Below are positions 27,301-56,441 of a stretch of DNA of 64,000 nt, piece by piece (positions within the stretch are counted from its first letter, which is position 1; the number at the start of each line of letters is the position of its first letter). A model generated the notes under the pieces. The model worked only from the letters and a program-made list of their open reading frames with translations, was not told the DNA's origin and made no database searches. Both the position numbers and the translations under genes were made by a program. The stretch spans positions 9,946,001-10,010,000 of the forward strand of contig OZ038466.1 in the NCBI GenBank assembly GCA_964036295.1. The letters run 5' to 3'. The DNA comes from Plumapathes pennacea. Lineage: Eukaryota > Cnidaria > Anthozoa > Antipatharia > Myriopathidae.

Positions 27301-30170
27301 ATTCTTACTTCCTGTTCATGTATTCTGTCTGAATTCTTTCTTCATTCTTACTTCCTGTTGCATCTACTTTAGTTTTGCTTCTTTCTTCATTCTTACTTCC
27401 TGTTCATCTATTTCTGTCTGAATTCTTTCTTCATTCTTACTTCCTGTTCATCTATTTCTGTCTGTCTTCTTTCTTTATTCTTACTTCCTGTTCATCTATT
27501 TCTGTCTGTCTTCTTTCTTTATTCTTACTTCCTGTTCATCTATTTCTGTCTGTCTTCTTTCTTCATTCTTCCTGTTCATCTATTTCTGTCTGTCTTCTTT
27601 CTTTATTCTTACTTCCTGTTCATGTATTTTTCTCTGAATTCTTCTTCATTCTTACTTCCTGTTCATCTATTTCTGTCTGTCTTCTTTCTTCATTCTTACT
27701 TCCTGTTCATGTATTCTGTCTGTTTTCTTTCTTCATTCTTACTTCCTGTTGCATCTACTTTAGTTTTACTTCTTTCTTCATTCTTACTTCCTGTTCATGT
27801 ATTTCTGTCTGAATTCTTTCTCCATTCTTACTTCCTGTTCATCTATTTCTGTCTGTCTTCTTTCTTTATTCTTACTTCCTGTTCATCTATTTCTGTCTGT
27901 CTTCTTTCTTCATTCTTACTTCCTGTTCATGTATTTTTCTCTGAATTCTTCTTTATTCTTACTTCCTGTTCATGTATTCTGTCTGTTTTCTTTCTTCATT
28001 CTTACTTCCTGTTGCATCTACTTCTGTCTGTCTTCTTTCTTCATTCTTACTTCCTGTTCATCTATTTCTGTCTGTCTTCTTTCTTCATTCTTACTTCCTG
28101 CTGCATCTATTTCTGTCTTACTTCTTTCTTCATTCTTACTTCCTGTTCATGTATTTTTCTCTGAAATTCTTCTTTATTCTTACTTCCTGTTCATGTATTC
28201 TGTGTTTTCTTTCTTCATCCTTACTTCCTGTTGCATCTACTTTAGTTTTACTTCTTTCTTCATTCTTACTTCCTGTTCATGTATTTCTGTCTGAATTCTT
28301 TCTTCATTCTTCCTGTTGCATCTATTTCTGTCTGTCTTCTTTCTCCATTCTTACTTCCTCTTCATCTATTTCTGTCTGTCTTCTTTCTTCATTCTTACTT
28401 CCTGTTCATCTATTTCTGTCTGTCTTCTTTCTTCATTCTTACTTCCTGTTCATCTATTTCTGCCTGTTATCTTTCTTCATTCTTACTTCCTGTTCATCTA
28501 TTTCTGTCTGACTTATTTCTTCATTCTTACTTCCTGTTGCATCTATTTCTGTCTTACTTCTTTATTTATTCTTACTTCCTGTTGCATCTATTTTTGTCTA
28601 AAATCTTTCTTCATTCACTTCCTGTTCCATCTATTTTTGTCTAAAATCTTTCTTCATTCACTTCCTGTTCCATCTATTTTTGTCTGAATTCTCTCTATTC
28701 CTAATTCCTCCTGCATTTATATTTTTGTCTGAACATTTCTTCATTCTTCCTGTTGCATCTTTTTCTGTCTGACTTCTTTTTTCATTCTTACTCCCTGTTC
28801 ATCTTTTTCTGTCTTAGTTTTTTCTTTATTCTTACTTCCTGTTGCATCTGTTTCTGTCTGACTTTATTTTTTATTCTTACATCCTGTTCATCTGTTTTTG
28901 TCTGACTTATTTCTTCATTCTTACTTCCTGTTGCACCTATTTCTTTCTTCTTTCTTTATTCTCACATCCTGTTGTATTTATTTTTGTCTGAATTCTTATT
29001 TTTACTTCCTGTTGCACTTATTTTTGTCTGAATTCTTCTACATTCTTACTTCCTGTTCATCTATTTCTGTCTGAATTCTTTCTTGATTCTTACTTCCTGT
29101 TTCATCTAATTCTGTTTGCCTTTCTAAATTTTTACTTCCTGTTTCATCTATTTCTGTCTGAGTTCTTTCTTTATTCTTAACTTTTTGCTCCATCTTTTTG
29201 TGTTTGAATTCTTTCTGTATTCCTACTTCCTTTTGAATCTATTTTTGTCTGACTTCTTTCTTCATTTTTACTTCCTGTTCATCTATTTCTGTTTGACTTC
29301 TTTCTTTATTCTTACTTTCTGTTGCATGTATTGTCTTCTTTCTTCATTTTTACTTCCTGTTCATCTATTTCTGTCTGACTTTTTTCTTCATTCTTACTTC
29401 CTGTTAATTTATTTCTTTTTTCATTACTACTTCCTGTTGCATGTATTTCCGTCTGAATTTTTCTTCATTCTTGCTTCCTGTTTATCTAGTTTTGTCTGAA
29501 TTGTTATTCATTCTTACTCCAGTTTGCATCTATTTTTGTCTGAATTATTCTTTATTCTTACTTCCTTTTCATCTAATTCTGTCTGACTTCTTTCTTCATT
29601 CTTACTTCCTGTTGCATTTATTTCTGTCTTCTTTCTTCATTCTTCCTGTTGTATCTATTTCTGTCTGTTTTCTTTCTTCATTTTTACTTCCCGTTGCATC
29701 TATTTTTGTCTGAATTCTTCTTCATTCTTACTTCCTGTTCATCTATTTTTGTCTGAAATCTTTCTGCTTTCTTACTTCCTGTTGCATCTATTTCTGTCTG
29801 AATTCTTTTTTCATTCTTACTTCCAGTTCATCTATTTTTGTCTTCTTTTTCTTCATTTCCTACCTCTTGTTCTACCTATTTCTGTTTGTCTGTTTTCTTT
29901 CTTCATTCTTACTTCCTATTGCATCTTCCTGTTTTGTCTCCTTGTTTCTTTATCACTTCCCGTTTTGTCTGCTCCCTTCTTGGCTCTCACATCTTGTTTT
30001 GTCTGCTTTTTTTCTACTTTTTCAAACCTTTTTTGTCTGCTTCTGTCTACTTTCTGACTTCCTGTTTTGTCTGCTTCTTTTTTTCTCTTGCCTTTTTAGT
30101 CTGCTTCTTTCTTCTCTCACTTCCTGTTCCATCTGTTTCTGTCCGTCTTTTTCTTTGCATTTTCACCACT
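24330..30170. repeat. 5.8-kb pyrimidine-rich minisatellite with higher-order structure
   Basis: The region is built from a unit of roughly 40 nt of the type TTCTTTCTTCATTCTTACTT CCTGTTCATCTATTTCTGTC TGTC (spaces mark breaks). Homogeneity is best from about 25,000 to 28,600 and decays toward both ends. A variant unit (ATGTATTCTGTCTG) recurs near 25195, 25495, 26190, 26489, 26792, 27057, 27711 and 27972, revealing a higher-order period of about 300 bp in places. The plus strand is almost purine-free and stop-poor, so long hydrophobic frames appear in all phases. They are compositional, not genes. A C-run at 24359-24374 marks the left edge. Confidence 0.92.
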
Positions 30171-30199: not shown

Positions 30200-31400
30200 G
30201 GTGGGGGATATGCGAGTTTCAAACTGATTGGTAGAGAATCCGTTTGCATACAATGTCGCGCATGACCTTTCACTGCGCAATCCATTTCGTGTTAGCACTA
30301 AGGACTTTCCTGCCATTAATACACCTTCATTTCCCATAGTTCCCGAACAAATAATCCCGAAATATATATATGCCGCAAGTTCAGTTATTCATATTCAATT
30401 CTTGGTTTATTCTGTTAGTGCCCGAGGGAAGGATGTTTTCAGCGACCTGGATCCATATTGCGTACTCATATGTGTACCACTGCGAGCCAAAGCAGCTCCT
30501 ATAATCGGCCAAGACCCCATTCAAGCCGTAAGGATCTCTCTGGGTATTTAGAGATATGTATGATATAAGAAGCGGTGTAGGACTTTTAATTGGCTTCTGT
30601 GATCATGAGATTGACAGTAGACGTTTGTCACGGTGTGCTTGGCCTGCTAAACACAATAAAACAAAAACAAAAACAAAAACAAGGAAATTCAGCAAAGAGA
30701 GTCACATCTAGTGAACAATGCCAATTCAGAATTTATGAAACTTTCTTCCTCTAATCTCGCAAAAACTTGATTGCACGGAATACTTGAAGATGATCAAATG
30801 GAAGCCGGGTTAAAAATTACATCAGTTACTCAAACGATCAGTGAAACGAAAAATATCAGGATCATTTTGTGGTTGAAAGATTGGTGTTAGTCCAAGCACA
30901 CCCATAGACGTCTATACTCTGGCTTGTAGCGCACTTCGAGCGACGTTGTATCAGCAGCGTTTTATAATGCTAATGAGAATATTGTATAGCTTGGGGGGAA
31001 GATGTGTTCTGTTGCTTTGCAGTGAGATGAAAAGAACGATTTTGCAACACAGGTACGTGTCCAGCCTTCGTCCTGGCAAATCGGACTCTTAAGGCGAGAA
31101 GCTTGCCGAAGGCTTCGAGCGGTCCGATTTGCCTGCTGGTATAGACCAGAGGTCCAGGGTGGATGGTGTGTAGCTTTCGCTTTTTCCCCGGGTTGGGACG
31201 CGGTCTAGGGACCTGACGGGGTTGCGACCTACTAACCATTTGCAGCCTTACGTCACTGGATGGAGTTCCCAAGAACGGGTATAAGGTATTGTTTTGTTTA
31301 TTTGATGTGTTGTATGTTTAGCGGGTTCGGCTGCCAGAGAGCATTTCATGATCACTAAAGAATGCAAAGTTGTTAGCTATTATTTTGTTAGCTATCTAGT
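30200..31400. repeat. Segmental duplication, copy A
   Basis: This segment is repeated directly at about 33060-34185 with an offset near 2.78 kb. The core 30895-31265 is nearly identical to 33670-34040, with about a handful of differences. The outer parts (30235-30550 versus 33065-33360) are clearly more diverged, with indels. No gene is recognised in it. An (AAAAC)n run lies near 30655-30682. Confidence 0.85.
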
Positions 31401-31719
31401 ATTAGTTGTAGTAGTAGTGACCCACAGCGACACCAAGACGTCACAGCAGCTTCCAATCCAGAGCCATAACTACAAGCATCAGCAACACCAGTTACAGAGA
31501 AGAACAGGAAGTGTTATCAAAGTCCATTCCAAACACCAAGTACAACACCGTCCAGTATCAGTACAAGTACCAGTCACCAACACAAGCAATACCAGGAGTT
31601 ATAATTATCATTACCAATTACGGCACAAATATCGACGGCATTTGCGGTGAGGAATAGAGACATAAAAGGGAACTACCATCGGCAAGCAGAGAGACAGCAA
31701 CACATAAAATATACAACAA

Positions 31720-32400
31720 AAAGAGCAAGAGCAACACGTACGATGAAAAGAAGAGAAGGGAGGCAGTGAAGGCGCCAGTAGTAGCGGGAGATCGGGCAGG
31801 TGAACAAGTGTAAGAAAGAAAGAAGAGTCCAACAGCAAAAAGAACAACAACAAAAACAGGAAGAAAAACAGCAACACATGCAATGGAAAGGAGAGAAGAA
31901 AACAGTGCTGAGCGGCCAAACAGCCAGGGTTAAAGCCAGGATACACGAATATTGACAAAAACAACAACAACAACAATAACCACGAGAAAATTAGGAACCA
32001 ATGCGGCGGAAAGAACATATGATAACAATGGAGGTGCCAATAATGGCGGGAATGCAGGCGTGTAAACAAGATCATGCAAGAAAGAAGATGCAACATTTAA
32101 TACACACACGATTGATGCCAAGATACAACAACAAAAACAGCAACACATGGATTGGAAAGGAGAGAAGAAAACAGCGACGAGCGACCAGACGACGAGGTTA
32201 AAACCAGGATACACGAATACTGACAAGAAACAACAACAACAACAACAACGAGAAAATAAGCAACCCATGTGATGGAAAAAAGAGATGACGACAGTGGAGG
32301 TGCCGATAATGACGAGAATGCAGGCGTGTAAACAAGACCATGCAAGAAAGAAGGGTCGAATAATTAAAGGACACAAGACTACAACGCATGCTTCCAGACT
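31720..32400. repeat. Tandem repeat of about 265 bp, 2.5 to 3 units
   Basis: Blocks with CAACACATG, GGAAAGGAGAGAAGAAAACA, AGGATACACGAATA(T/C)TGAC, (CAA)n, CGAGAAAAT and GGCGTGTAAACAAGA(T/C)CATG recur with a spacing of about 260-270 bp. The AACAAGA(T/C)CATGCAAG landmark falls near 32065 and 32333. A related single block (GGAGGCAGTGGAGGTGCCAC) lies at 34528-34580, immediately before the 432-bp satellite. Confidence 0.75.
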
Positions 32401-33060: not shown

Positions 33061-34190
33061 AACCCGTTTGCAATATATTGCGCATGACCCTCTAGTGCTT
33101 ATTACGTCTTAATAACCGGTGTTCGCACTAAGGACCTTCCTACCGTTAGTATACCATAATAAGTCGGACAAATATTCCCAAAAATCATATATACCGCTAA
33201 TGCAGTCATTCATTTCCCATTCTTGGTCTATCCCCAAGGGAAGGATGTTTCCAGCGACTTGGTTCCACGTAACGTTACCATATGTGTACCACTGCGAGCC
33301 AAAGCAACTCCTATCGGCCAAGACGCCATACAAGCCGGAAGGATCTCTCTGGGTATGTTAATATATAGTGTATGCAGTACTATTGGAGTTTTGATTGGCT
33401 TCTGTGATCATGAAATTGACAGTAGACGTTTGTCATGGTGTGCTTGGCCTGCTAAACGCGATAAACAAACCAAGGAAAATCCAGCAAAGAGCATCACCTC
33501 TGGTGAACAATGTCAGTTTAGAAATTTATCAAAGTTTTTTCCTCCAATTCTTTCAATAACCACATAGAACGCTTGAAGATAACTAAATGAAACCCGGGTT
33601 AAAAATCAAATCAGTTACTGAAGCGATTGGTGAAAAAAAAAAATCATCAGAAACATTTTGTGGTTGAAAGTCCAAGCACACCCATAGACGTCTATACTCT
33701 GGCTTGTAGCGCACTTCGAGCGACGTTGTATCAGCAGCGTTTTATAATGCTAATGAGAATATTGTATAGCTTGGGGGGAAGATGTGTTCTGTTGCTTTGC
33801 AGTGAGATGAAAAGAACGATTTTGCAACACAGGTACGTGTCCAGCCTTCGTCCTGGCAAATCGGACTCTTAAGGCGAGAAGCTTGCCAAAGGCTTCGAGC
33901 GGTCCGATTTGCCTGCTGGTATAGACCAGAGGTCCAGGGTGGATGGTGTGTAGCTTTCGCTTTTTCCCCGGGTTGGGACGCGGTTTAGGGACCTGACGGG
34001 GTTGCGACCTACTAACCATTTGCAGCCTTACGTCACTGAATGGAGTTCCACAAGAAAGGGGTGAGGCATTGTTTGGTCTTTTTGATGTGTTGTATGTTTA
34101 GCGGGTTCGGTTGCCAGAGAGCATTTCATGATCACTAAAGAATGCAAAATTGTTAGCTATACTTTGTTAGCTATCTAGTATTAGTTGTAG
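33060..34190. repeat. Segmental duplication, copy B
   Basis: Direct partner of 30200-31400 (see that entry). It keeps the GATGTGTTCTGTTGCTTTGC core almost unchanged and continues through GCATTTCATGATCACTAAAG into the stretch before the satellite. Confidence 0.85.
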
Positions 34191-35356
34191 TAGTAGTGAC
34201 CCACAGCGATATCAAGACGTCACAGCAGCATTCAATCCAGAGCCCTAACTACAAGCATCAGCAACTGACCAATTACCGAGAAAAACAGAAAGTGATATTC
34301 AAGTCCACGACCCCAAACGTCAAGTACAACACCAGTATCAGTACAAGTAAAACACAACCAATACCAGGAGATCTCATCGTGAAATACAGACGAAATAACG
34401 ACGGTCGTCACGATGACGTCCAAGAACCAAAAACTGGGCGACTACCATCGGCAAGGAGAAACAGCAGAGCAAAACTAATCAAAAGCAAACACCAACACCA
34501 ACACCAAATACCATAAAAAAAACTAAACGGAGGCAGTGGAGGTGCCACTAGTGGTGGAAAATCGGGCAGGTAAACAAATTTAAAAAAAGAATGTCGTCCT
34601 TAGATGGAGAACACCACCAGAGCAAGAAGAGCGAGCATTGCAGCCCCGCACTCAAGCTCAGAGGTCGGAACGGACATAAGGTTGGTATCCATTAAGAATT
34701 CTCTTGTATAACTGCTTTTGTAGCCCTTAGATTTGGGAGAAACTCTAGGTACTGTAGTTAGATAATAGTTACCCGTCGGGTGCTCTGCCGCCGTGTAAAT
34801 CGGGCCTCCCACTATGGGAATTTTTTGTTGCTTTTGTATAGGATCCTCGTTAAGCAAGGACAGTTTGTGCAATAAGTTGTAAATTGCTTGATTTAATCCA
34901 TATCTCTATATTTCCAGGTATTAGAAGCTGAACCCACGCCGCTAATCAAGAGAGCTTCTTATTTCACAGATACGTAAAATTAATTTTAACGAACGTATAA
35001 GGAGGGGGGAAGGGTGTGCGGAGTAACTAATAGGGTCGTGCTGAGATGGAGAACACCACCAGAGCCAGAAGAGCGAACTATGCAGCCCCGCTTGAAGCTC
35101 AGGGCTCGGAACGGACATAAGGTGGGTAGCCATTAACAATACTTTTGTATAACTGTTTTTGTATAGCCCTTAGATTTGGGAGAAACTCTAGGTAGTTAGA
35201 TAATAGTTACCCGTCGGGTGCTCTGCCGCCGTGTAAATCGGGCCTCCCACTATGGGAATTTTTTTATTGCTTTTGTATAGGATCCTCGTTAAGCAAGGAC
35301 TGTTTGTGCAATAAGTTGTAAATTGCTTGATTTAATCCATATCTCTATATTTCCAG

Positions 35357-35554
35357 GTATTAGAAGCTGAACCCACGCTGCTAATCAAGAGAGCTTCTTA
35401 TTTCACAGATACGTAGAATTAATTTTAACGAACATATAAGGGAGGGTGTGGGGGAGTAACTAATAGGGTCGTGCTGAGATGGAGAACACCACCAGAGCCA
35501 AAAGAGCGAACTATGCAGCCCCGCTTGAAGCTCAGGGGTCGGAACGGACATAAG
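35357..35554 (+). other. Representative cassette exon inside the 432-bp unit
   Basis: One unit is described as an example. The acceptor TTTCCAG ends at 35356, preceded by TTGATTTAAT (branch-point-like) and a TCTCTATAT tract. The donor is at 35555 (TAAG|GTGGGT). The 198-nt segment has stops in all frames when entered from the acceptor, so it is not an internal coding exon. It does contain a 24-codon ATG frame starting MENTTRAR and ending at TAA just before the donor. The same signals recur in nearly every unit, spaced 432 bp apart, as expected for a transcript with serially repeated cassettes. Confidence 0.5.
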
Positions 35555-35577
35555 GTGGGTAGCCATTAACAATACTT

Positions 35578-35730
35578 TTGTATAGCTGCTTTTGTAGCCC
35601 TTAGATTTGGGAGAAACTCTAGGTAGTTAGATAATAGTTACCCGTCGGGTGATCTGCCGCCGTGTAAATCGGGCCTCCCACTATGGGAATTTTTTGTTGC
35701 TTTTGTATAGGATCCTCGTTAAGCAAGGAC
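35578..35730 (+). ncRNA. snRNA-like structural module (one example of the repeated unit)
   Basis: Downstream of the donor each unit carries, in order, an ATAC-TTTT-GTAT hairpin (in units reading AATACTTTTGTAT), CCCTTAGATTTGGG, CCCGTCGGG and TCCCACTATGGGA. These are followed by AATTTTTTG, close to the Sm-site consensus A-U(4-6)-G. Last comes a closing stem TTGCTT…AAGCAA whose loop has an inner palindrome (AGGATCCT or TAGGACCCTA, depending on the unit). Hairpins, an Sm-like site and a 3' terminal hairpin are the order found in Sm-class snRNAs and spliced-leader RNAs. Sequence does not match U1, U2, U4, U5, U7 or U11/U12 as I know them. Hypothesis only; no promoter element was identified. Confidence 0.25.
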
Positions 35731-35869
35731 TGTTTGTGCAATAAGTTGTAAATTGCTTGATTTAATCCATATCTCTATATTTCCAGGTATTAGAAGCTGA
35801 ACCCACGCCGCTAATCAAGAGAGCTTCTTATTTCACAGATACGTAGAATTAATTTTAACGAACGTATAA

Positions 35870-35900
<31 letters not shown>
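35870..35900. repeat. G-runs in a subset of satellite units
   Basis: About 31 consecutive G replace the usual GGAGGGTGTGGG block in this unit. Similar runs lie at 38496-38519 (24 G), 39386-39407 (interrupted), 39844-39869 (26 G) and 41170-41194 (25 G). These units also share GTTGTGGGGGTTGTGGGGGA after the run, so they form a subfamily. Confidence 0.9.
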
Positions 35901-35902
<2 letters not shown>

Positions 35903-38900
35903 GTGGGGGTTGTGGGGGAGTAACTAATAGGGTCGTGCTGAGATGGAGAACACCACCAGAGCCAGAAGAGCGAACTATGCAGCCCCGCTTGAAGCTCAGG
36001 GGTCGGAACGGACATAAGGTGGGTAGCCATTAACAATACTTTTGTATAAGTGCTTTTTTATAGCCCTTAGATTTGGGAGAAACTCTAGGTAGTTAGATAA
36101 TAGTTACCCGTCGGGTGCTCTGCCGCCGTGTAAATCGGGCCTCCCACTATGGGAATTTTTTGTTGCTTTTGTATAGGACCCTAGTTAAGCAAGGACTGTT
36201 TGTGCAATAAGTTGTAAATTGCTTGATTTAATCCATATCTCTATATTTCCAGGTATTAGAAGCTGAACCCACGCTGCTAATCAAGAGAGCTTCTTATTTC
36301 ACAGATACGTAGAATTAATTTTAACGAACATATAAGGGAGGGTGTGGGGGAGTAACTAATAGGGTCGTGCTGAGATGGAGAACACCACCAGAGCCAGAAG
36401 AGCGAACTATGCAGCCCCGCTTGAAGCTCAGGGGTCGGAATGGATATAAGGTGGGTAGCCATTAACAATACTTTTGTATAACTGCTTTTTTATAGCCCTT
36501 AGATTTGGGAGAAACTCTAGGTAGTTAGATAATAGTTACCCGTCGGGTGCTCTGCCGCCGTGTAAATCGGGCCTCCCACTATGGGAATTTTTTGTTGCTT
36601 TTGTATAGGACCCTAGTTAAGCAAGGACTGTTTGTGCAATAAGTTGTAAATTGCTTGATTTAATCCATATCTCTATATTTCCAGGTATTAGAAGCTGAAC
36701 TCACGCTGCTAATCAAGAGAGCTTCTTATTTCACAGATACGTACAATTAATTTTAACGAACATATAAGGGAGGGTGTGGGGGAGTAACTAATAGGGTCGT
36801 GCTGAGATGGAGAACACCACAAGAGCCAGAAGAGCGAACTATGCAGCCCCGCTTGAAGCTCAGGGGTCGGAACGGACATAAGGTGGGTAGCCATTAACAA
36901 TACTTTTGTATAACTGCTTTTTTATAGCCCTTAGATTTGGGAGAAACTCTAGGTAGTTAGATAATAGTTACCCGTCGGGTGCTCTGCCGCCGTGTAAATC
37001 GGGCCTCCCACTATGGGAATTTTTTGTTGCTTTTGTATAGGACCCTAGTTAAGCAAGGACTGTTTGTGCAATAAGTTGTAAATTGCTTGATTTAATCCAT
37101 ATCTCTATATTTCCAGGTATTAGAAGCTGAACCCACGCCGCTAATCAAGAGAGCTTCTTTTTCCACAGATACGTAGAATTAATTTTAACGAACATATAAA
37201 GGAGGGTGTGGGGGAGTAACTAATAGGGTCGTGCTGAGATGGAGAACACCACCAGAGCCAGAAGAGCGAACTATGCAGCCCCACCTGAAGGTCAGGGGTC
37301 GGAACGGACATATGGTGGGTAGCCATTAACAATACTTTTGTATAACTGCTTTTTTATAGCCCTTAGATTTGGGAGAAACTCTAGGTAGTTAGATAATAGT
37401 TACCCGTCGGGTGCTCTGCCGCCGTGTAAATCGGGCTTCCCACTATGGGAATTTTTTGTTGCTTTTGTATAGGACCCTAGTTAAGCAAGGACTGTTTGTG
37501 CAATAAGTTGTAAATTGCTTGATTTAATCCATATCTCTATATTTCCAGGTATTAGAAGCTGAACTCACGCTGCTAATCAAGAGAGCTTCTTATTTCACAG
37601 ATACGTACAATTCATTTTAACGAACATATAAGGGAGGGTGTGGGGGAGTAACTAATAGGGTCGTGCTGAGATGGAGAACACCACCAGAGCCAGAAGAGCG
37701 AACTATGCAGCCCCGCTTGAAGCTCAGGGGTCGGAACGGACATAAGGTGGGTAGCCATTAACAATACTTTTGTATAAGTGCTTTTTTATAGCCCTTAGAT
37801 TTGGGAGAAACTCTAGGTAGTTAGATAATAGTTACCCGTCGGGTGCTCTGCCGCCGTGTAAATCGGGCCTCCCACTATGGGAATTTTTTGTTGCTTTTGT
37901 ATAGGACCCTAGTTAAGCAAGGACTGTTTGTGCAATAAGTTGTAAATTGCTTGATTTAATCCATATCTCTATATTTCCAGGTATTAGAAGCAGAACCCAC
38001 GCCGCTAATCAAGAGAGCTTCTTTTTCCACAGATACGTAGAATTAATTTTAACGAACATATAAGGGAGGGTGTGGGGGAGTAACTAATAGGGTCGTGCTG
38101 AGATGGAGAACACCACCAGAGCCAGAAGAGCGAACTATGCAGCCCCACCTGAAGCTCAGGGGTCGGAACGGACATAAGGTGGGTAGCCATTAACAATACT
38201 TTTTTATAACTGCTTTTTTATAGCCCTTAGATTTGGGAGAAACTCTAGGTAGTTAGATAATAGTTACCCGTCGGGTGCTCTGCCGCCGTGTAAATCGGGC
38301 TTCTCACTATGGGAATTTTTTGTTGCTTTTGTATAGGACCCTAGTTAAGCAAGGACTGTTTGTGCAATAAGTTGTAAATTGCTTGATTTAATCCATATCT
38401 CTATATTTCCAGGTATTAAAAGCTGAACCCACGCCGCTAATCAAGAGAGCTTCTTATTTCACAGATACGTAGAATTAATTTTAACGAACGTATAAGGGGG
38501 GGGGGGGGGGGGGGGGGGGTTGTGGGGGTTGTGGGGGAGTAACTAATAGGGTCGTGCTGAGGTGGAGAACACCACCAGAGCCAGAAGAGCGAACTATGCA
38601 GCCCCGCTTGAAGCTCAGGGGTCGGAACGGACATAAGGTGGGTAGCCATTAACAATACTTTTGTATAACTGCTTTTTTATAGCCCTTAGATTTGGGAGAA
38701 ACTCTAGGTAGTTAGATAATAGTTACCCGTCGGGTGCTCTGCCGCCGTGTAAATCGGGCTTCCCACTATGGGAATTTTTTGTTGCTTTTGTATAGGACCC
38801 TAGTTAAGCAAGGACTGTTTGTGCAATAAGTTGTAAATTGCTTGATTTAATCCATATTTCTATATTTCCAGGTATTAGAAGCTGAACTCACGCTGCTAAT

Positions 38901-41900
38901 CAAGAGAGCTTCTTATTTCACAGATACGTACAATTCATTTTAACGAACATATAAGGGAGGGTGTGGGGGAGTAACTAATAGGGTCGTGCTGAGATGGAGA
39001 ACACCACCAGAGCCAGAAGAGCGAACTGTGCAGTCCCGCTTGAAGCTCAGGGGTCGGAACGGACATAAGGTGGGTAGCCATTAACAATACTTTTGTATAA
39101 CTGCTTTTTTATAGCCCTTAGATTTGGGAGAAACTCTAGGTAGTTAGATAATAGTTACCCGTCGGGTGCTCTGCCACCGTGTAAATCGGGCCTCCCACTA
39201 TGGGAATTTTTTTGTTGCTTTTGTATAGGATCCTCGTTAAGCAAGGACTGTTTGTGCAATAAGTTGTAAATTGCTTGATTTAATCCATATCTCTATATTT
39301 CCAGGTATTAGAAGGAGAACCCACGCCGCTAATCAAGAGAGCTTCTTTTTCCACAGATACGTAGAATTAATTTTAACGAACGTATAGGGGGGGGGGGGGG
39401 AGGGGGGGTTGTGGGGGTTGTGGGGGAGTAACTAATAGGGTCGTGCTGAGATGGAGAACACCACCAGAGCCAGAAGAGCGAACTATGCAGCCCCGCTTGA
39501 AGCTCAGGGGTCGGAACGGACATAAGGTGGGTAGCCATTAACAATACTTTTGTATAACTGCTTTTTTATAGCCCTTAGATTTGGGAGAAACTCTAGGTAG
39601 TTAGATAATAGTTACCCGTCGGGTGCTCTGCCGCCGTGTAAATCGGGCCTCCCACTATGGGAATTTTTTGTTGCTTTTGTATAGGACCCTAGTTAAGCAA
39701 GGACTGTTTGTGCAATAAGTTGTAAATTGCTTGATTTAATCCATATCTCTATATTTCCAGGTATTAGAAGCTGAATCCACGCCGCTAATCAAGAGAGCTT
39801 CTTATTTCACAGATACGTAGAATTAATTTTAACGAACGTATAAGGGGGGGGGGGGGGGGGGGGGGGGGGATTGTGGGGATTGTGGGGGAGTAACTAATAG
39901 GGTTGTGCTGAGATGGAGAACACCACCAGAGCCAGAAGAGCGAACTATGCAGCCCCGCTTGAAGCTCAGGGGTCGGAACGGACATAAGGTGGGTAGCCAT
40001 TAACAATACTTTTGTATAACTGCTTTTTTATAGCCCTTAGATTTGGGAGAAACTCTAGGTAGTTAGATAATAGTTACCCGTCGGGTGCTCTGCCACCGTG
40101 TAAATCGGGCCTCCCACTATGGGAATTTTTTTGTTGCTTTTGTATAGGATCCTCGTTAAGCAAGGACTGTTTGTGCAATAAGTTGTAAATTGCTTGATTT
40201 AATCCATATCTCTATATTTCCAGGTATTAGAAGCAGAACCCACGCCGCTAATCAAGAGATCTTCTTTTTCCACAGATACGTAGATTTAATTTTAACGAAC
40301 ATATAAGGGAGGGTGTGGGGGAGTAACTAATAGGGTCGTGCTGAGATGGAGAACACCACCAGAGCCAGAAGAGCGAACTATGCAGCCCCACCTGAAGCTC
40401 AGGGGTCGGAACGGACATAAGGTGGGTAGCCATTAACAATACTTTTGTATAACTGCTTTTTTATAGCCCTTAGATTTGGGAGAAACTCTAGGTAGTTAGA
40501 TAATAGTTACCCGTCGGGTGCTCTGCCGCCGTGTAAATCGGGCTTCCCACTATGGGAATTTTTTGTTGCTTTTGTATAGGACCCTAGTTAAGCAAGGACT
40601 GTTTGTGCAATAATTTGTAAATTGCTTGATTTAATCCATATCTCTATATTTCCAGGTATTAGAATCTGAACTCACGCTGCTAATCAAGAGAGCTTCTTAT
40701 TTCACAGATAGGTAGAATTAATTTTAACGAACATATAAGGGAGGGTGTGGGGGAGTAACTAATAGGGTCGTGCTGAGATGGAGAACACCACCAGAGCCAG
40801 AAGAGCGAACTATGCAGCCCCGCTTGAAGCTCAGGGGTCGGAACGGACATAAGGTGGGTAGCCATTAACAATACTTTTGTATAAGTGCTTTTTTATAGCC
40901 CTTAGATTTGGGAGAAACTCTAGGTAGTTAGATAATAGTTACCCGTCGGGTGCTCTGCCACCGTGTAAATCGGGCCTCCCACTATGGGAATTTTTTTGTT
41001 GCTTTTGTATAGGATCCTCGTTAAGCAAGGACTGTTTGTGCAATAAGTTGTAAATTGCTTGATTTAATCCATATCTATATTTCCAGGTATTAGAAGCAGA
41101 ACCCACGCCGCTAATCAAGAGAGCTTCTTTTTCCACAGATAGGTAGAATTAATTTTAACGAACGTATAAGGGGGGGGGGGGGGGGGGGGGGGGGTTTGTG
41201 GGGGTTGTGGGGGAGTAACTAATAGGGTCGTGCTGAGATGGAGAACACCACCAGAGCCAGAAGAGCGAACTATGCAGCCCCGCTTGAAGCTCAGGGGTCG
41301 GAACGGACATAAGGTGGGTAGCCATTAACAATACTTTTGTATAACTGCTTTTTTATAGCCCTTAGATTTGGGAGAAACTCTAGGTAGTTAGATAATAGTT
41401 ACCCGTCGGGTGCTCTGCCGCCGTGTAAATCGGGCCTCCCACTATGGGAATTTTTTGTTGCTTTTGTATAGGACCCTAGTTAAGCAAGGACTGTTTGTGC
41501 AATAATTTGTAAATTGCTTGATTTAATCCATATCTCTATATTTCCAGGTATTAGAAGCTGAACCCACGCTGCTAATCAAGAGAGCTTCTTATTTCACAGA
41601 TACGTAGAATTAATTTTAACGAACATATAAGGAAGGGTGTGGGGGAGTAACTAATAGGGTCGTGCTGAGATGGAGAACACCACCAGAGCCAGAAGAGCGA
41701 ACTATGCAGCCCCACCTGAAGGTCAGGGGTCGGAACGGACATAAGGTGGGTAGCCATTAACAATACTTTTGTATAACTGCTTTTTTATAGCCCTTAGATT
41801 TGGGAGAAACTCTAGGTAGTTAGATAATAGTTACCCGTCGGGTGCTCTGCCGCCGTGTAAATCGGGCCTCCCACTATGGGAATTTTTTGTTGCTTTTGTA

Positions 41901-44900
41901 TAGGACCCTAGTTAAGCAAGGACTGTTTGTGCAATAATTTGTAAATTGCTTGATTTAATCCATATCTCTATATTTCCAGGTATTAGAAGCTGAACCCACG
42001 CTGCTAATCAAGAGAGCTTCTTATTTCACAGATACGTAGAATTAATTTTAACGAACATATAAGGGAGGGTGTGGGGGAGTAACTAATAGGGTCGTGCTGA
42101 GATGGAGAACACCACCAGAGCCAGAAGAGCGAATTATGCAGCCCCACCTGAAGGTCAGGGGTCGGAACGGACATAAGGTGGGTAGCCATTAACAATACTT
42201 TTGTATAACTGCTTTTTTATAGCCCTTAGATTTGGGAGAAACTCTAGGTAGTTAGATAATAGTTACCCGTCGGGTGCTCTGCCGCCGTGTAAATCGGGCC
42301 TCCCACTATGGGAATTTTTTGTTGCTTTTGTATAGGACCCTAGTTAAGGAAGGACTGTTTGTGCAATAAGTTGTAATTTGCTTGATTTAATCCATATCTC
42401 TATATTTCCAGGTATTAGAAGCTGAACCCACGCTGCTAATCAAGAGAGCTTCTTATTTCACAGATACGTAGAATTAATTTTAACGAACATAAAAGGGAGG
42501 GTGTGGGGTTGTAACTAATAGGGTCGTGCTGAGATGGAGAACACCACCAGAGCCAGAAGAGCGAACTATGCAGCCCCGCTTGAAGCTCAGGGGTCGGAAC
42601 GGACATAAGGTGGGTAGCCATTAACAATACTTTTGTATAACTGCTTTTTTATAGCCCTTAGATTTGGGAGAAACTCTAGGTAGTTAGATAATAGTTACCC
42701 GTCGGGTGCTCTGCCGCCGTGTAAATCGGGCCTCCCACTATGGGAATTTTTTGTTGCTTTTGTATAGGACCCTAGTTAAGCAAGGACTGTTTGTGCAATT
42801 AGTTGTAAATTGCTTGATTTAATCCATATCTCTATATTTCCAGGTATTAGAAGCTGAACCCACGCTGCTAATCAAGAGAGCTTCTTATTTCACAGATACG
42901 TAGAATTAATTTTAACGAATATATAAGGGAGGGTGTGGGGGAGTAACTAATAGGGTCGTGCTGAGATGGAGAACACCACCAGAGCCAGAAGAGCGAACTA
43001 TGCAGCCCCGCTTGAAGCTCAGGGGTCGGAACGGACATAAGGTGGGTAGCCATTAACAATACTTTTGTATAAGTGCTTTTTTATAGCCCTTAGATTTGGG
43101 AGAAACTCTAGGTAGTTAGATAATAGTTACCCGTCGGGTGCTCTGCCGCCGTGTAAATCGGGACTTCCACTATGGGAATTTTTTGTTGCTTTTGTATAGG
43201 ACCCTAGTTAAGCAAGGACTGTTTGTGCAATAATTTGTAAATTGCTTGATTTAATCCATATCTCTATATTTCCAGGTATTAGAAGCTGAACCCACGCTGC
43301 TAATCAAGAGAGCTTCTTATTTCACAGATACGTAGAATTAATTTTAACGAACATATAAGGGAGGGTGTGGGGGAGTAACTAATAGGGTCGTGCTGAGATG
43401 GAGAACACCACCAGAGCCAGAAGAGCGAACTATGCAGCCCCACCTGAAGGTCAGGGGTCGGAACGGACATAAGGTGGGTAGCCATTAACAATACTTTTGT
43501 ATAACTGCTTTTTTATAGCCCTTAGATTTGGGAGAAACTCTAGGTAGTTAGATAATAGTTACCCGTCGGGTGCTCTGCCGCCGTGTAAATCGGGCCTCCC
43601 ACTATGGGAATTTTTTGTTGCTTTTGTATAGGACCCTAGTTAAGCAAGGACTGTTTGTGCAATAAGTTGTAAATTGCTTGATTTAATCCATATCTCTATA
43701 TTTCCAGGTATTAGAAGCTGAACCCACGCTGCTAATCAAGAGAGCTTCTTATTTCACAGATACGTAGAATTAATTTTAACGAACATAAAAGGGAGGGTGT
43801 GGGGTTGTAACCAATAGGGTCGTGCTGAGATGGAGAACACCACCAGAGCCAGAAGAGCGAACTATGCAGCCCCGCTTGAAGCTCAGGGGTCGGAACGGAC
43901 ATAAGGTGGGTAGCCATTAACAATACTTTTGTATAACTGTTTTTTTATAGCCCTTAGATTTGGGAGAAACTCTAGGTAGTTAGATAATAGTTACCCGTCG
44001 GGTGCTCTGCCGCCGTGTAAATCGGGCCTCCCACTATGGGAATTTTTTGTTGCTTTTGTATAGGACCCTAGTTAAGCAAGGACTGTTTGTGCAATTAGTT
44101 GTAAATTGCTTGATTTAATCCATATCTCTATATTTCCAGGTATTAGAAGCTGAACCCACGCTGCTAATCAAGAGAGCTTCTTATTTCACAGATACGTAGA
44201 ATTAATTTTAACGAATATATAAGGGAGGGTGTGGGGGAGTAACTAATAGGGTCGTGCTGAGATGGAGAACACCACCAGAGCCAGAAGAGCGAACTATGCA
44301 GCCCCGCTTGAAGCTCAGGGGTCGGAACGGACATAAGGTGGGTAGCCATTAACAATACTTTTGTATAACTGCTTTTTTATAGCCCTTAGATTTGGGAGAA
44401 ACTCTAGGTAGTTAGATAATAGTTACCCGTCGGGTGCTCTGCCGCCGTGTAAATTGGGACTCCCACTATGGGAATTTTTTGTTGCTTTTGTATAGGACCC
44501 TAGTTAAGCAAGGACTGTTTGTGCAATAATTTGTAAATTGCTTGATTTAATCCATATCTCTATATTTCCAGGTATTAGAAGCTGAGCCCACGCTGCTAAT
44601 CAAGAGAGCTTCTTATTTCACAGATACGTAGAATTAATTTTAACGAACATATAAGGGAGGGTGTGGGGGAGTAACTAATAGGGTCGTGCTGAGATGGAGA
44701 ACACCACCAGAGCCAGAAGAGCGAACTATGCAGCCCCACCTGAAGCTCAGGGGTCGGAACGGACATGAGGTGGGTAGCCATTAACAATACTTTTGTATAA
44801 CTGCTTTTTTATAGCCCTTAGATTTGGGAGAAACTCTAGGTAGTTAGATAATAGTTACCCGTCGGGTGCTCTGCCGCCGTGTAAATCGGGCCTCCCACTA

Positions 44901-45879
44901 TGGGAATTTTTTGTTGCTTTTGTATATGACCCTAGTTAAGCAAGGACTGTTTGTGCAATAACTTGTAAATTGCTTGATTTAATCCATATCTCTATATTTC
45001 CACGTATTAGAAGCTGAACCCACGCTGCTAATCAAGAGAGCTTTTTATTTCACAGATACGTAGAATTAATTTTAACGAACATATAAGGGAGGGTGTGGGG
45101 GAGTAACTAATAGGGTCGTGCTGAGATGGAGAACACCACCAGAGCCAGAAGAGCGAACTATGCAGCCCCACCTGAAGGTCAGGGGTCGGAACGGACATAA
45201 GGTGGGTAGCCATTAACAATACTTTTGTATAACTGCTTTTTTATAGCCCTTAGATTTGGGAGAAACTCTAGGTAGTTAGATAATAGTTACCCGTCGGGTG
45301 CTCTGCTGCCGTGTAAATCGGGCCTCCCACTATGGGAATTTTTTGTTGCTTTTGTATATGACCCTAGTTAAGCAAGGACTGTTTGTGCAATAACTTGTAA
45401 ATTGCTTGATTTAATCCATATCTCTATATTTCCAGGTATTAGAAGCTGAACCCACGCTGCTAATCAAGAGAGCTTTTTATTTCACAGATACGTAGAATTA
45501 ATTTTAACGAACATATAAGGGAGGGTGTGGGGGAGTAACTAATAGGGTCGTGCTGAGATGGAGAACACCACCAGAGCCAGAAGAGCGAACTATGCAGCCC
45601 CACCTGAAGCTCAGGGGTCGGGACGGACATAAGGTGGGCAGCCATTAACAATACTTTTGTATAACTGCTTTTTTATAGCCCTTAGATTTGGGAGAAACTC
45701 TAGGTAGTTAGATAATAGTTACCCGTCGGGTGCTCTGCCGCCGTGTAAATCGGGCCTCCCACTATGGGAATTTTTTGTTGCTTTTGTATAGGACCCTCGT
45801 TAAGCAAGGACTGTTTGCAACGAGTTGTAAAGTGCTTGGTTTAATCTATACCTCTGTATTTCCAGGTATTATAATCCGC

Positions 45880-47100
45880 GCTGTTTTTCAACAGATGTTT
45901 TTTTTTGGGGGTTGCGCCCAATTAATTTTGCTAACTAACTGATGGGGGAGGGGGTGGGGAAGATGTTTTGTGGGTGTATTTTAATGAAGTTGTACCGTTC
46001 ACATCCGTGCAGATACTTGCAATTGATCATGGCAGCGAACTGTTTGTCCGATTAATGTGTTACGATCTTATTAGCAAAGTTTGTGTATCGAGAATTGTTC
46101 GGATTCCATTACTTTGTCTTCAAAGGTAAGGTTTTTCCGCAATTTTTGCATGTGCGATTATTTCCATTCCGATTTTAGCACCCGCTTTATTTTGTAGTTC
46201 GGACCGTGGTATTGTCTTGAGAACGGAGTATGGCTGCTTTCTGTGGTATTTCAATTTTCGCCATTATTGAATGCTGTTTCTGTTGTACTATTTCTGTGGT
46301 AAACCTTTGGTTTGGTTTGGTGAAAGTTGCTCGGCTTTGGTTTTGACCTTGTGCCTCGCGAACACAGTTTGTCAGCTCTCGGCTGTTGTCTTCTTATTCT
46401 ACCATTATTGGGTGCCAAATCATTTTCTTTCTCTTTGGAAACCTTCTTTAGGTTTGCTTGGTATTTTCCTAATACTTTCCATTCGCTTGGTTGTTGGTCT
46501 CTTTGTGATGATCCGGCTCTTCGTGTTCCAAAGCCAGCGACAATGAGTGGGTGGCACCCCATGATACCCCTGCCTTTGAGCAGCTAATACGAGCAAGAGC
46601 TCGGGGGACTGGTAGCCATGAACTAATACTATTTCATTCACAGGGTATTTTTGGGTAGTTGGATCGCACTAAGGCACTGTTTCCGAATTTGAATTGAAGG
46701 TAGTCTAACGCCGAAACCTTGTACATTCATGAGCCACTGTCAGCGAGGCGGGTTTTTCTAAGTATCTAAACTTTTGAATGTTATTTTACTACATGAATAC
46801 ACTAAAATACTCTCGACGATTTTTTAACGGAATATGGAAGCTACATTTACTGTGCTGTCTTCTGATTTCTCTTCTGCTTCTCAGGTCGTTGTTTTGGGCT
46901 GAAAAAATAAACGATCTACTCAATTACACTCAGACTTCGTGAGTGTACTGAAAAAGGTTATCACAGGTATATCCTGTCTTTGGATATCGATCGGAATGAT
47001 TTTAGCGCAAAACATTTCTCGTTTCCCCATGGGGTCTTATTGGTGGTTTTTACTGCAATTAGGCGCACCTTGGGCCCGGTTCAGTCAACGCTCGGTTGGG
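45880..47100. other. Right flank of the satellite, diverged relatives
   Basis: No gene is seen. A block at 46590-46635 (GAGCTCGGGGGACTGGTAGCC, then ATGAACTAATAC) resembles the donor-side region of the 432-bp unit, suggesting an old, decayed unit. Hydrophobic frames near 46270-46590 have no recognisable domain. Confidence 0.4.
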
Positions 47101-47104
47101 CTAA

Positions 47105-47490
47105 GGCCCCGTCCACACTACGCCGGATAAATTTGAAAACGCAACTTTATTCTTACGGTTAGGCCTACCGTCCACACTAATCCGGATAAATTGTCCACAA
47201 AAACGGAACTTTTCGAAAACGCTCTTCAAAGTGGATAAATTTTAAAACGCCGGCTTTTCCGTTTTGGTGTGGACGAAAAACATTTTGAAAACGGAACTTT
47301 TCGAAAACTCTGACTCACGTGGTCACGTCAAGTGGTTTCAAAGATTGTCAGGGACGTTTGTAGAGCAATAACAATACATTTGGGCCCGGAAACATTTTAT
47401 CCGTTTTCCAGTGTGGACGGAAAACATTTCTTGCGTTTTCAGAGTGAAAGTTGCGTTTTCAAATTTATCCGGCGTAGTGTGGACGGGGCC
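47105..47490. mobile_element. MITE with 44-bp perfect terminal inverted repeats and TAA duplication
   Basis: The left end (GGCCCCGTCCACACTACGCC…, 47105-47148) and the right end (47447-47490) are perfect inverted repeats of 44 bp. Both are flanked by TAA (47102-47104 and 47491-47493). A 3-bp TWA duplication and GG-initial termini point to the PIF/Harbinger superfamily. The interior carries further nested copies of CGTCCACACTAATCCGGAT and GTTTTCGAAAA-type motifs. No transposase is present. Confidence 0.85.
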
Positions 47491-47639
47491 TAAGCCACGG
47501 TTAACTAAATGTTGTACTCATAATACTGCAAAGTTTTGATTTTCCCGAAGACTAACCAAACAAGTTTGTTCCAACTCAATGTATAGCGAGGAAGTCGTTT
47601 TGTTAGCGAAAAGTTTTCAACCTCCAGCTCAAAAGTTTA

Positions 47640-52187: not shown

Positions 52188-53725
52188 TTAAATAAGACAT
52201 GTTACCAATGATGCTAGTAACATGCACAAAGCAACCTGGATACCAGCTCTTGCTGCCACATTTGGTTGGCCCCTTGGGACTGCAGCACACCCATACACAG
52301 GGTTGTTGTTGACAACTGCGAGTTCACTAGGATTGTCAGACACTTCTGGGCAGCCTGTGTAGCATCCAATTGTCCAGGGATAAGTGTTGTTGGGCAGATG
52401 GTAGTGGTATATTTCTGTGCCGTTGAGGATGTGTTTGTGACCTTGACAGGCGTCCAAGTCAGTTGGTGGGACACCGCCTAGAGAATTGATCCCATAGAGC
52501 CCAAACCCATCAAACATCCAGCCCAGCAATTTGGAGTGGCTCCCTGCCTCATCCTCTGGTAAATCACACAATAGTCTCTGGGGGTTATTTGCAAACCCAT
52601 TTCCTGCAATGGTTAATTAATCTGTCAGTCTTTAAATTCAAATATGACATAATTATTTTCTGATCAAATTTTCCTCCTCCATACCAGTGTACAAGATCAT
52701 TATACCTGGCTTGATTGGAAAACTATATGACCTTTACATGTGAACTTATGATTAAAAGAAATTATCATGGCCTTCATGTGTATATTCAGATGTATCTTAT
52801 TTGACTTGCTTACATGGACTGTTTGCAGCTAAACTAAACTAGCACCATACAGCCCATAAACAAAATGTGTTTAATATAATTGTATATGGAGGCAACAACA
52901 AATTGAAAACAAAGGCAAAATTAAAGTATAAGAGCATGCAATAAAAAACAGGAAAGAAGAAGGGAAGCCAAAAAGAAAGAGTGAAAAAAAAAAACAGAAC
53001 ATGGCTGCTATTTTCCCATATTGCAAGTACCATGTTTTTGTAAAGTTTAGTTTGACTGCATTTCAAGCATTTCATTCGCCTACAACGTAAAGACTGCAGG
53101 CTTAGGCTGTTGTCCGCTCAAAAAATTACAACAAAATCATGTCAACACTGACATGGCTCTTGATTTAGGGGATGGGTGGATTATTACTTTTTATGTGTTT
53201 AAGGGGTTATAGCAAGTAAGTTAAGCCTGCAACGCCTCTGTGAATGCAATCTGTAAACTAGTGGAAATGATTGAAAGGAAAGCTTCAAATAATGAAGTTT
53301 ATACCTGAATGAACATGATAATATCCATCTGGAGAAGAATGGCCTCCACAGGAATCAAATGTAGAACCTTCAGATTCGACAGCATCCAAAATGTCGGATG
53401 GGCCACCTTGATCCTTGCAGAGGGTTTTATTACTATCGCAAGGTGCACCCGCACCATACAGCAGAACACCACTCAACAGAAGGCCTATCCCTCCCATAAT
53501 TGGATGTGGGTCAGAGTCCTTGAGATATAGAGTTCCATTGATTCTTGTGAGGTTTTCTGTGATGGGAATGGGCATATGGGCTGTCTTCGGATGTAGAGGG
53601 AACTTGTAGGTTTTTTCATTGAGACAGGCTTGGTCTGGGTTAGTCCAGTTTGGGTTCTTGTATGGTGGACAGGTCGATGTCGTTATGTAGCGATAGGTTG
53701 AGTCAGTTGTGGTCTTTCAGTCCTC
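52188..53725 (-). CDS. YHYH-domain protein, distal tandem copy, 5' incomplete
   Basis: Two minus-strand exons are clear: about 53725-53305 (TTDSTYRYITTSTCPPYKN … YHVHSG) and 52603-52188 (GNGFANNPQRLLCDLPEDEA … EIYHYHLPNN … ALCMLLASLVTCLI). The splice phase matches that of the proximal copy at 54480-56102. The protein has the paired HVHS and YHYH histidine motifs of YHYH-domain proteins and a hydrophobic C-terminal tail like a GPI signal. The 5' side is the oddity: in frame, a TGA lies just upstream of TTDSTYRY. No signal-peptide exon is visible between here and the proximal gene. Either a small upstream exon splices at CTGAAAG|ACC (about 53726), or the copy is truncated. Biochemical function of the family is unknown to me. 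Confidence 0.7.
52604..53304. other. Intron of the distal YHYH gene
   Basis: AT-rich intron without recognisable exons; borders are GTATAAAC (donor side) and CCATTGCAG (acceptor side) on the minus strand. Confidence 0.7.
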
Positions 53726-54479
53726 CCATCTACACGAAAGTAAGACTACAAAATGCATCGATTTGAAAACACTACCAAACTCTGCTTTCTGTTTCCGTGT
53801 AATGTGGAAATGGAGGTGAAAATGCATCATTTTGAAATGAAAATGCATCAGTATAAATGCAGCCTCCATTGTATGTACCACACAGTCCTTGCATCCCCGA
53901 CTCTTTCAGTAACAGACAATAATAATAAAAAGAATGGGAACTATGGAACCTTTAAGGTTCTTACATGTAATATGATATTTATTCCAAACTAAACTAAGTA
54001 TCAAGACTACTGTAAATGTAGTGATGCAGGCTAGCCTAACTGATGAAATGATGAAAGGCTATTAGATGTTAGCTAATAGTAACTTTACACCAAGTCTTGA
54101 TTCAGGCGGCATGTCTAACCTATAAAATGCTAAACTTTGATCTAAAAACTCTAGTAAGAATAATAATCAGAATTCTCTAATAAGAATTTCGTCTCATTCT
54201 CTGCCAGAATCTCAAAAAAATAATTAATTACATGTAAAGCATGTAAAATTTTGAAATAATTTGTGACGGCAGTGATTCCCATAACTGGCCACAGCTAGTC
54301 TGCTTTGAAAGCTGAAGGGGAGAGGGTGGGTGTATATTTGCCCTCTGTCCTGTATTTGAACATAGTATGCAACACCAGTCTGTTTCAATTTTAAAACAAG
54401 CTAACAGTTGGTGTTGTATAAGCATGTAAACCTATAGTATTTTATACTAAAAACCAATGTCACCCTATTTTATGGGGTA
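53726..54479. other. Spacer between the tandem YHYH genes
   Basis: This interval should hold the promoter and first exon of the distal copy, but no signal-peptide frame was recognised on the minus strand. Confidence 0.5.
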
Positions 54480-56102
54480 CTAAATATTAAGGCATGCTGC
54501 CAGCAATGCTAGCAATATGCACAAAGCAACCTGGATATCAGCTCTTGCCACTGCATTTGGTTGGCTCCCTGGACACCCATAGTTGGTGGCCACTTTGAGT
54601 TCTTTTTCGTTGTTGGACACTTCTGGGCAGCCCTTGTAGCATCCAATTGTCCAGGGAAAGTTGTTGTTGGGCAGGTGGTAGTGGTATGTTTCTGTTCTGC
54701 TGATGTTGTGGCTGTGACCTTGACAGGGGTCCAAGTCATTTGGTGGGACACCGCCTAGAGAATTGATCCCATAGAGCCCAAACCCATCAAACATCCAGCC
54801 CAGCAATTTGGAGTGGCTCCCTGCCTCATCCTCTGGCAAATTGCACAATGTCCTCTGGGAGTTATTTGCAAACCCATTTCCTGCAATGGTAATATGATAT
54901 GTCCATCTCAGTGACATAATTTACCATCCCATTCCAAGTGTAGAAGATCATGATGATTGTTTCTTGGGAAATAATTATGTATAACATCTGTATATTAATT
55001 TATTGAAAAACTCACTTTAGCTTCGTTTATAGACTTTATATATGCAGATGCACATGTTATTTGATCTGCTTGACTGCCAAACGTAATTATGTAAATATTA
55101 ACGACATGCAATAATATTGTAAATGCTTCGAATATTTTATATCTCACCACTTGATCAGTCAATGTAATTAATTTATGCTTTCTCAGTTGAGTTTGTTTAG
55201 CTGTTGCAACATTTTGATTCAGCTCGATAGCACTTTAAGCATTTCACTCGACTGCCAAGAGCGTGAGATTCACTCGAAACATTATACGACAAAATCACTT
55301 GATGTGCGTGACAATTAAGTTAATTGTGGACACGAAGATCAACATGGATGCCGCTTCTCAGTTCTTTGATGTTTTGTTTGTCTAATCCACTGTTGATTTA
55401 GAGGTTCTATATTACTCTATGTTTCAATGCTCTTCAAATAATTTACTCAAATAATGTTCTCAAAAAAGTAAGCTCGAGTAGCGCCGCCTCTGCGAGCGCC
55501 CCCTACTTCAGATTCAAATTGTAAACGGAAGTTTTGATTGAAAGGAAAAATTGAATAAAGTCTATACCTGAGTGAACGTGATATTCTCCGCCAGGAGAGG
55601 CATGGCCTGCACAGAAATCAACTGTATGACCTTCAGCGTCGACAGCATCCACCATGTCGGACGGTGCACCGTCTTTCTCGCAAGGGGCAGTAACACAAGG
55701 CGAACCCACACCAAACACGAGTACGCCATTCACCAGAACGCCCATGGCTCCCAGAATCGGGGCTGGGTCAGAATCCTCGAGATAGAGCATTTCCTTGTAT
55801 CTTGTAAGGGCTTTCGCGGCTGGTATGGGCTTAGTGGCCAGCTTGGGTTGTAGAGGGACCTTGTAAGTATTTGTAGTGAGGCATGCATCGTTTGGGTTAG
55901 ACCACTTTGGGTTGCTGTATGGTGGACAGGTCGATGTTTTTATGTAGCGATAGCTTGAGTCGGTTGTGATCGAGACGGATTTCCAGGGTTTACTTGAAGG
56001 GCACTTTGTCGAACACTTTTTCGCCCCTGGTCCTTGACAACTCACCAGCCCAATATCGATGAATATGAATACCAACCACAAAATTGCCCCCGGCCCTTTC
56101 AT
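54480..56102 (-). CDS. YHYH-domain secreted or GPI-anchored protein, complete copy
   Basis: Two minus-strand exons, 56102-55568 (535 bp) and 54880-54480 (401 bp), join in phase 1 at GTATAGA…CATTGCAG to give 311 residues. The N-terminus MKGPGAILWLVFIFIDIGLV then SCQ is a signal peptide. The body holds TCPPYSNPKWSNPNDAC, LYLEDSDPAPILGAMG, HASPGGEYHVHSG, LLGWMFDGFGLYG and the YHYH motif at about 244-247, followed by PWTIGCYKGCP. These are hallmarks of the YHYH protein domain (Pfam YHYH). The tail ALCILLALLAACLNI is hydrophobic and ends at the stop, consistent with GPI anchoring. Cysteine pairs suggest an extracellular fold. The His clusters may bind metal, which is inference. It is the upstream member of a head-to-tail pair. 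Confidence 0.88.
54881..55567. other. Intron of the proximal YHYH gene
   Basis: AT-rich intron with no internal exon seen. Confidence 0.8.
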
Positions 56103-56351: not shown

Positions 56352-56355
<4 letters not shown>

Positions 56356-56440
<85 letters not shown>

Positions 56441-56441
56441 T
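56356..56441. repeat. (AAT)n microsatellite, about 28 units
   Basis: An uninterrupted AAT tract between the YHYH gene and the sulfotransferase. Poly-Asn and poly-Leu frames across it are artefacts. Confidence 0.97.

Follow-up and report, generated by a model that had tools for sequence, protein, structure and literature searches.

Probable tandem duplication of noncoding exons in a 432-bp satellite-like array of Plumapathes pennacea

Background

Can a stretch of DNA that would be annotated as a satellite be a series of exons? The question is raised by a 64,000-nucleotide region of the anthozoan Plumapathes pennacea (GenBank assembly GCA_964036295.1, contig OZ038466.1, here C5, positions 9946001-10010000; hereafter the window), in which the units of a 432-bp tandem repeat carry splice-like signals. 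To our knowledge, repeat-built lncRNAs, of which Firre and Xist are examples, have been described chiefly in mammals, and the origin of their repeats is unclear. We analyzed the window together with the 290 Mb genome (24 contigs) to which it belongs. The array is probably a set of tandemly duplicated noncoding exons within one spliced Pol II gene, predicted to span about 22.96-46.93 kb of the window on the plus strand. Transcription would start at a CpG-rich promoter and proceed through seven small exons and an intron rich in pyrimidines, then through two copies of a module termed K and 26 copies of a 432-bp exon-intron unit, to end at an AATAAA signal, and the mature RNA would contain about 25 serial copies of a module of about 200 nt. 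Tandem duplication would have multiplied exon-intron units at three scales, with unequal exchange homogenizing each array.

Structure of the array

TRF delineates a repeat of period 432 at 34593-45871, with 25.8 copies and 93% matches, in agreement with the initial annotation, which had placed about 26 head-to-tail units at the right coordinates. Read on the plus strand, the 26 units resolve into 26 putative introns of 232-237 nt, the first at 34681-34917 and the last at 45634-45865, with 25 internal exons between them that measure 198-232 nt. A GT is found at the 5' end of all 26 introns, and the donor takes the form TAAG/GTGGGT in 22; the acceptor is TTTCCAG in 25 and TTTCCAC in the remaining one, while the branch-point-like word TTGATTTAAT occurs exactly, approximately 20 nt 5' of the acceptor, in 25 of the 26. 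The constant spacing of a branch-point-like word, an acceptor and a donor from unit to unit, as originally described, is thus borne out. Since a competing acceptor-like word, TGTATAG, sits within most introns (24/26, 63/67 and 54/58 in the window array and the two paralogous arrays described below), the start of the array exon is uncertain. Of the 25 exons, 19 are 198 nt long and the remaining six measure 204-232 nt. Three G-runs of 25-31 reported by TRF, at 35870-35900, 39844-39869 and 41170-41194, fall in units longer than 432 bp, each within one of the six longer exons.

To gauge how far such motifs exceed chance we used a hand-made scoring of splice-site strength. By this measure a donor and an acceptor at least equally strong on one strand arose in 16/500 dinucleotide-shuffled units of the window array, and in 31/500 and 253/500 for the units of the two paralogous arrays; the motifs of a single unit are by themselves only moderately improbable. 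The window array alone displays no excess conservation of the splice motifs (14 deviations versus 14.1 expected). When the three arrays are pooled (149 full units, with 34 signal columns in each array), 32 unit-columns deviate versus 78.2 expected, with a column permutation P of 0.009 and 68/431 circular shifts as good, and the four GT/AG columns give one deviation versus 9.3 expected (P 0.11). Across the three array consensuses, 37/42 ungapped signal columns are identical as against 292/386 of the others, a level equaled by 24/427 circular shifts. Given these shift, permutation and single-array figures, the conservation of splice motifs inside the array is suggestive rather than decisive. The check proposed in the initial annotation, an excess of motif conservation over the rest of the unit, fails in the window array taken alone and succeeds only modestly in the three arrays taken together.

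Paralogous arrays

Genome-wide searches with three unit words recovered two further arrays: one on contig C10 at 5.954-5.980 Mb, with 58 introns and a period of about 440, and one on the minus strand of the window's own contig (C5:19.861-19.890 Mb, hereafter C5b), with 68 introns, one of them partial, and a period of about 443. The number of introns therefore differs between the arrays (26 in the window, 58 and 68). With up to 3 mismatches allowed, one unit word totals 84 forward and 68 reverse matches in the genome, which equals the prediction from the arrays (26+58 and 68), and another totals 85 forward and 67 reverse, with one forward match beyond what the arrays hold. As these totals fit the three arrays to within one match, nothing points to numerous dispersed copies; among the matches listed every place falls in the three arrays, so that the repeat is limited to its own loci, and on both counts a dispersed transposable element was rejected as a candidate.

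Gaps aside, the consensus of the window array is 87% identical to that of C5b and 82% to that of C10, and mean intron identity within arrays is 0.979-0.989 at the lags tested, with edge units left out. Both paralogous arrays retain the same splice layout, with a weak donor in the C10 array (GTTGGT, score 5.9 versus 9.7). Edge units are closest to their own array, except for the first partial unit of C5b, which is closest to the last unit of the window array, so that the common ancestor may or may not have possessed an array. The arrays thus consist of tandem, homogenized noncoding units in the manner of satellites, and at the same time each of the three is tied to a gene-like setting, being flanked by a shared promoter block on one side and a shared 94-nt 3' element on the other. 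Outside the arrays, window positions 21959-51340 align piecewise with the C5b locus, with no match at 30.2-34.6 kb.

Conserved context of the array

The repeats, their paralogs and the conservation of promoter and splice sites are directly visible in the genome sequence. The promoter region (22788-22958, plus strand) contains TGACGTAG, a CCAAT word, and E2F-like TTTCCCGC / GCGCGAAA words; the promoter-motif scan recovered no E2F-like words at C10. The block is identical at 154/171 positions with C5b, 122/158 with C10 and 141/171 with C4a, a promoter locus that lacks an array. Its CpG observed/expected ratio is 1.44 in the window, 1.68 at C5b and 1.85 at C10, as compared to a median of 0.60 and a 95th percentile of 1.32 across 336 bins of the window.

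Immediately downstream, on the plus strand, lies putative exon 1 (22959-22988, start uncertain), with the donor GAG/GTAGGA, whose GT is kept at C5b, C10 and C4a. Putative exon 2 (23385-23456) has its acceptor and donor kept at C5b, with the acceptor AG shifted by one base at C4a; putative exon 3 (23560-23631), whose acceptor was picked by eye and falls below the scan threshold, has its GT/AG kept at C5b and lacks the acceptor AG at C4a. Splice-like sites together with the alignments to C5b and C4a delimit putative exons 4 (23737-23798), 5 (23900-23971) and 6 (24075-24138), and putative exon 7 (24240-24309) is delimited by splice-like sites and the C5b alignment, being absent from that of C4a. 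A scan of these 1.4 kb, with thresholds fixed after a first look at the sites, found 5 exon-like acceptor-donor pairs on the plus strand and 0 on the minus strand, and 0/500 shuffles reached 5. The upstream region of C5b likewise gave 5 and 0 pairs (0/500 shuffles), and that of C10 a single pair, reached by 24/500 shuffles. C5b retains every one of the 26 GT/AG bases that flank the seven exons, and C10 retains 10/14 of those flanking the first four. Conservation between the window and C5b is no higher in the upstream exons than in the introns (374/436 versus 785/885 identical), which suggests that the RNA sequence itself is under little constraint.

The predicted intron that precedes the later modules includes a 44-bp pyrimidine-rich tandem array on the plus strand (24806-29926, by TRF), 5 kb in which T makes up 56% and C 24%. 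A resembling tract is present at C5b and C4a, and C10 carries a different, TACAG-rich array. The dinucleotide AG is counted 23 times versus 52.3 expected, or 19 versus 46.3, in the window tract and 24 times versus 50.9 in that of C5b, and the C10 array shows an excess, 250 versus 131.2, on which account AG exclusion was rejected as a feature of the family. PTB-like words in the window tract are at the level set by composition (248, shuffle mean 236). Two K modules follow on the plus strand, at 30289-31817, with an intron-like stretch GTACGT...TACTAAC...TTTGCAG at 31053-31245, and at 33119-34587, with its intron-like stretch at 33833-34025; this stretch is conserved from GTACGT through TACTAAC to TTTGCAG.

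On the far side of the array, again on the plus strand, a putative exon at 45866-46125 ends in the donor CAAAG/GTAAGG (at 46126), which is conserved at C5b, where 171/260 positions of the exon body are identical; no GTAAG-type donor was recognized after the array at C10. Within the predicted last intron lies a strongly conserved 94-nt element (46534-46627), identical at 91/94 positions to C5b and at 91/94 to C10, far above its surroundings, and a 44-mer from it occurs 3 times in the genome, once at each array locus. The element matches neither Rfam, at gathering score, nor Pfam; a weak Rfam match to TP73-AS1 covers it on the minus strand (18.9 bits versus a threshold of 75, E 0.13). The putative last exon (46644-46930) has the acceptor TTCACAG, ending at 46643, and an AATAAA at 46906, both common to the window and C5b. 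Accordingly, the initial proposal of one long RNA with serial noncoding exons gains indirect support from the promoter and exons in the same orientation upstream and from the conserved 3' signals downstream, though none from splice-motif excess in the window array alone.

A family of promoters and K modules

Two promoter words, searched with up to 3 mismatches, mark 17 places in all (15 in one search and 17 in the other): 12 on contig C4 (16.97-17.82 Mb), two on C5 and a single one on each of C6, C11 and C10. Three of these loci carry a 43x-bp array and the other 14 lead into a K module. With 3 mismatches or fewer, a 43-mer of the K module is found 36 times in the genome, both window copies included; 34 of these follow a promoter copy on the same strand at a distance within 25 kb, and the remaining two are on C4 with no promoter match nearby. 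At 14/14 non-array loci the first K copy is found about 3.3-3.4 kb past the promoter, in distances that mix positions from two promoter words about 90 bases apart. In the C4 cluster (L043, L044, L054), 12 copies of the promoter and 31 of the K-module 43-mer are spread over both strands, and along its plus strand the numbers of K copies per locus run 4, 1, 4, 1, 4, 1, 3, 1, as if segments had been duplicated.

C4a (L054 joined to L043) is the one non-array promoter locus whose upstream part was compared; there the promoter is followed by upstream exons, then by a pyrimidine tract and then by a K module. With gaps counted as differences, splice-site positions are kept there at 118/139 as against 1001/1422 positions overall, and 0/149 shifted sets are as good; GT/AG dinucleotides are intact in 9/11 cases, which taken alone gives a binomial P of 0.053. 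Tentatively, and with less than even confidence, we suggest that about 17 lncRNA genes might share one promoter type and evolve by inserting and multiplying exon-bearing modules (small exons about 170 bp apart, K modules of 2.8-4 kb and exon units of 43x bp), with the number of repeats setting a valency that could change between alleles. The literature matches listed, in which subscription journals are thinly covered, include no description of such a promoter, K-module and array family.

Alternative explanations

The most serious alternative accepts the gene and departs from our preferred explanation on function: in a real noncoding gene, unequal crossing-over could have amplified one exon-intron passively, leaving a copy number without function. 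We consider this quite plausible, if short of probable. Exons that are no more conserved than introns, copy numbers as different as 26, 58 and 68, the unrelated intermediate array at C10 and the absence of a folding signal in three intron stretches from a single unit all agree with it, against which stand the persistence of arrays of the same exon at three loci and the conservation of their splice sites. That the array is an untranscribed satellite, its splice-like words being chance features copied with the unit, is unlikely; although equally strong pairs arise in shuffled units at the above rates and the window array shows no excess motif conservation, conserved and co-oriented promoter, exons and 3' signals surround the array, and the unit words fit three such loci to within one match. 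Protein-coding repeated exons are the least probable of the readings considered: a 37-codon open stretch crosses the 94-nt element, but it has no Pfam match, stop codons interrupt all three frames both in the joined upstream exons and in the first six exons of the array, and indels in the upstream exons, among them those of exon 4 relative to C5b and C4a, are not in threes, which argues against coding. Coding exons were rejected on these grounds.

Tandem arrays are usual for genes of short RNAs, spliced leaders and snRNA-like RNAs, and each unit might be a small transcription unit of this kind; a T-run follows a small hairpin in the intron (in a consensus fold computed without a control). This we regard as very unlikely, given the acceptor-like site and donor in every unit, the conserved promoter-like block at the head of the locus and the absence of an Rfam match in the window, even though species-specific leaders may be absent from Rfam. 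There is also no fold signal: compared to shuffles, three intron stretches from a single unit and two stretches taken from the 94-nt element gave z of -1.35 to 0.53. With neither a threshold Rfam match nor a fold signal, spliced-leader, snRNA and known structured RNA were set aside as candidates, and the initial suggestion of many short RNAs finds no support, no Rfam family reaching threshold in the window. Still less probable is that the introns host snoRNAs or microRNAs and the exons are a by-product, as in Snord115/116. The layout recalls the Snord116 host as reported (PMC2248623), conserved blocks lie in the intron interior, and the minus strand of 151/151 array introns shows a loose H-box/ACA pattern. 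In our judgement the last is a chance feature of homogenized sequence, as it would be antisense to the gene proposed here and lacks Rfam or fold support; on the plus strand such spacing is found in 2/151 introns. A C box (no more than 1 mismatch) followed by CTGA is present in 0/151 introns on the transcript strand, and an exact one in 0/151 on the minus strand, so that a C/D snoRNA host was rejected. As to Rfam, the window has no match at gathering threshold, and 1 kb of the array returns sub-threshold matches to mir-268 (E 1.1 and 3.3), on which the microRNA candidate was dropped, and Six3os1_2 (3.6) and nothing more. The three intron stretches of one unit, moreover, fold no better than shuffles.

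Comparable systems and possible function

A lncRNA with a local repeat across many exons has a precedent in Firre, whose repeat is reported to overlap 7/13 exons in human and 11/23 in mouse and to act as a nuclear retention signal (PMC4820808). The likeness is one of layout: the reported Firre repeat is discontinuous within its locus, unlike the head-to-tail exon-intron satellite seen here at three loci, and the exons here are predictions from sequence. The Snord116 host, according to the same report as above (PMC2248623), likewise places serial exons, noncoding in human, in one long transcript, with a C/D snoRNA in its introns (27 copies in human, over 40 in mouse), whereas C/D boxes are absent from the array introns. 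That such arrays can be serially spliced is suggested by the W exons of the EBV IR1 repeat, for which serial splicing with rare exon skipping is described (PMC12451641); there too every tandem unit has exons, but the repeats are viral, with 3-kb units that are partly protein-coding and have a promoter in each unit. The repeats of the noncoding transcript PNCTR, reported as a sink for PTBP1 (PMC6224606), resemble the tract at 24806-29926 in being pyrimidine-rich and tandem; unlike what is described for PNCTR, the PTB-like words of the window tract are at composition level and the C10 tract is different.

From the features described above we infer that the locus is transcribed and spliced, that the whole RNA is noncoding and that it may have a function. 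As to the latter we favor, with considerable doubt and by analogy with the Firre retention signal and PNCTR-PTBP1, a multivalent RNA whose repeated exon would bind one partner many times. It is no less likely that a real gene has undergone neutral amplification, since the exons show no extra constraint. A G-quadruplex was rejected as a shared exon element: a strict motif is present in 5/25, 66/67 and 0/57 exons of the three arrays, and one with loops up to 12 in 22/25, 67/67 and 0/57, so that one array lacks it in all 57 exons. If the proposed gene is real, a satellite-annotated stretch can conceal exons; a single genome then combines young arrays with exon repeats that are older and diverged, and with paralogs of 26, 58 and 68 units, so that one could test directly how exon copy number is linked to RNA function.

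Neighboring sequences

Shortly past the predicted gene, 47099-47496 contains MITE-like inverted repeats of 50 nt, 98% complementary and 298 nt apart, with no C5b match there. ORFs on the minus strand at 52188-57455 are convergent with the predicted array gene. One of them matches Sulfotransfer_2 (PF03567, E 3.2e-56), and three minus-strand ORFs match YHYH (PF14240) with E of 0.00056, 0.0004 and 1.4e-06, the last alone passing the cut-off. Near the other end of the window, 1612-1962 on the plus strand matches a PDGF/VEGF domain (PF00341, E 2.3e-06).
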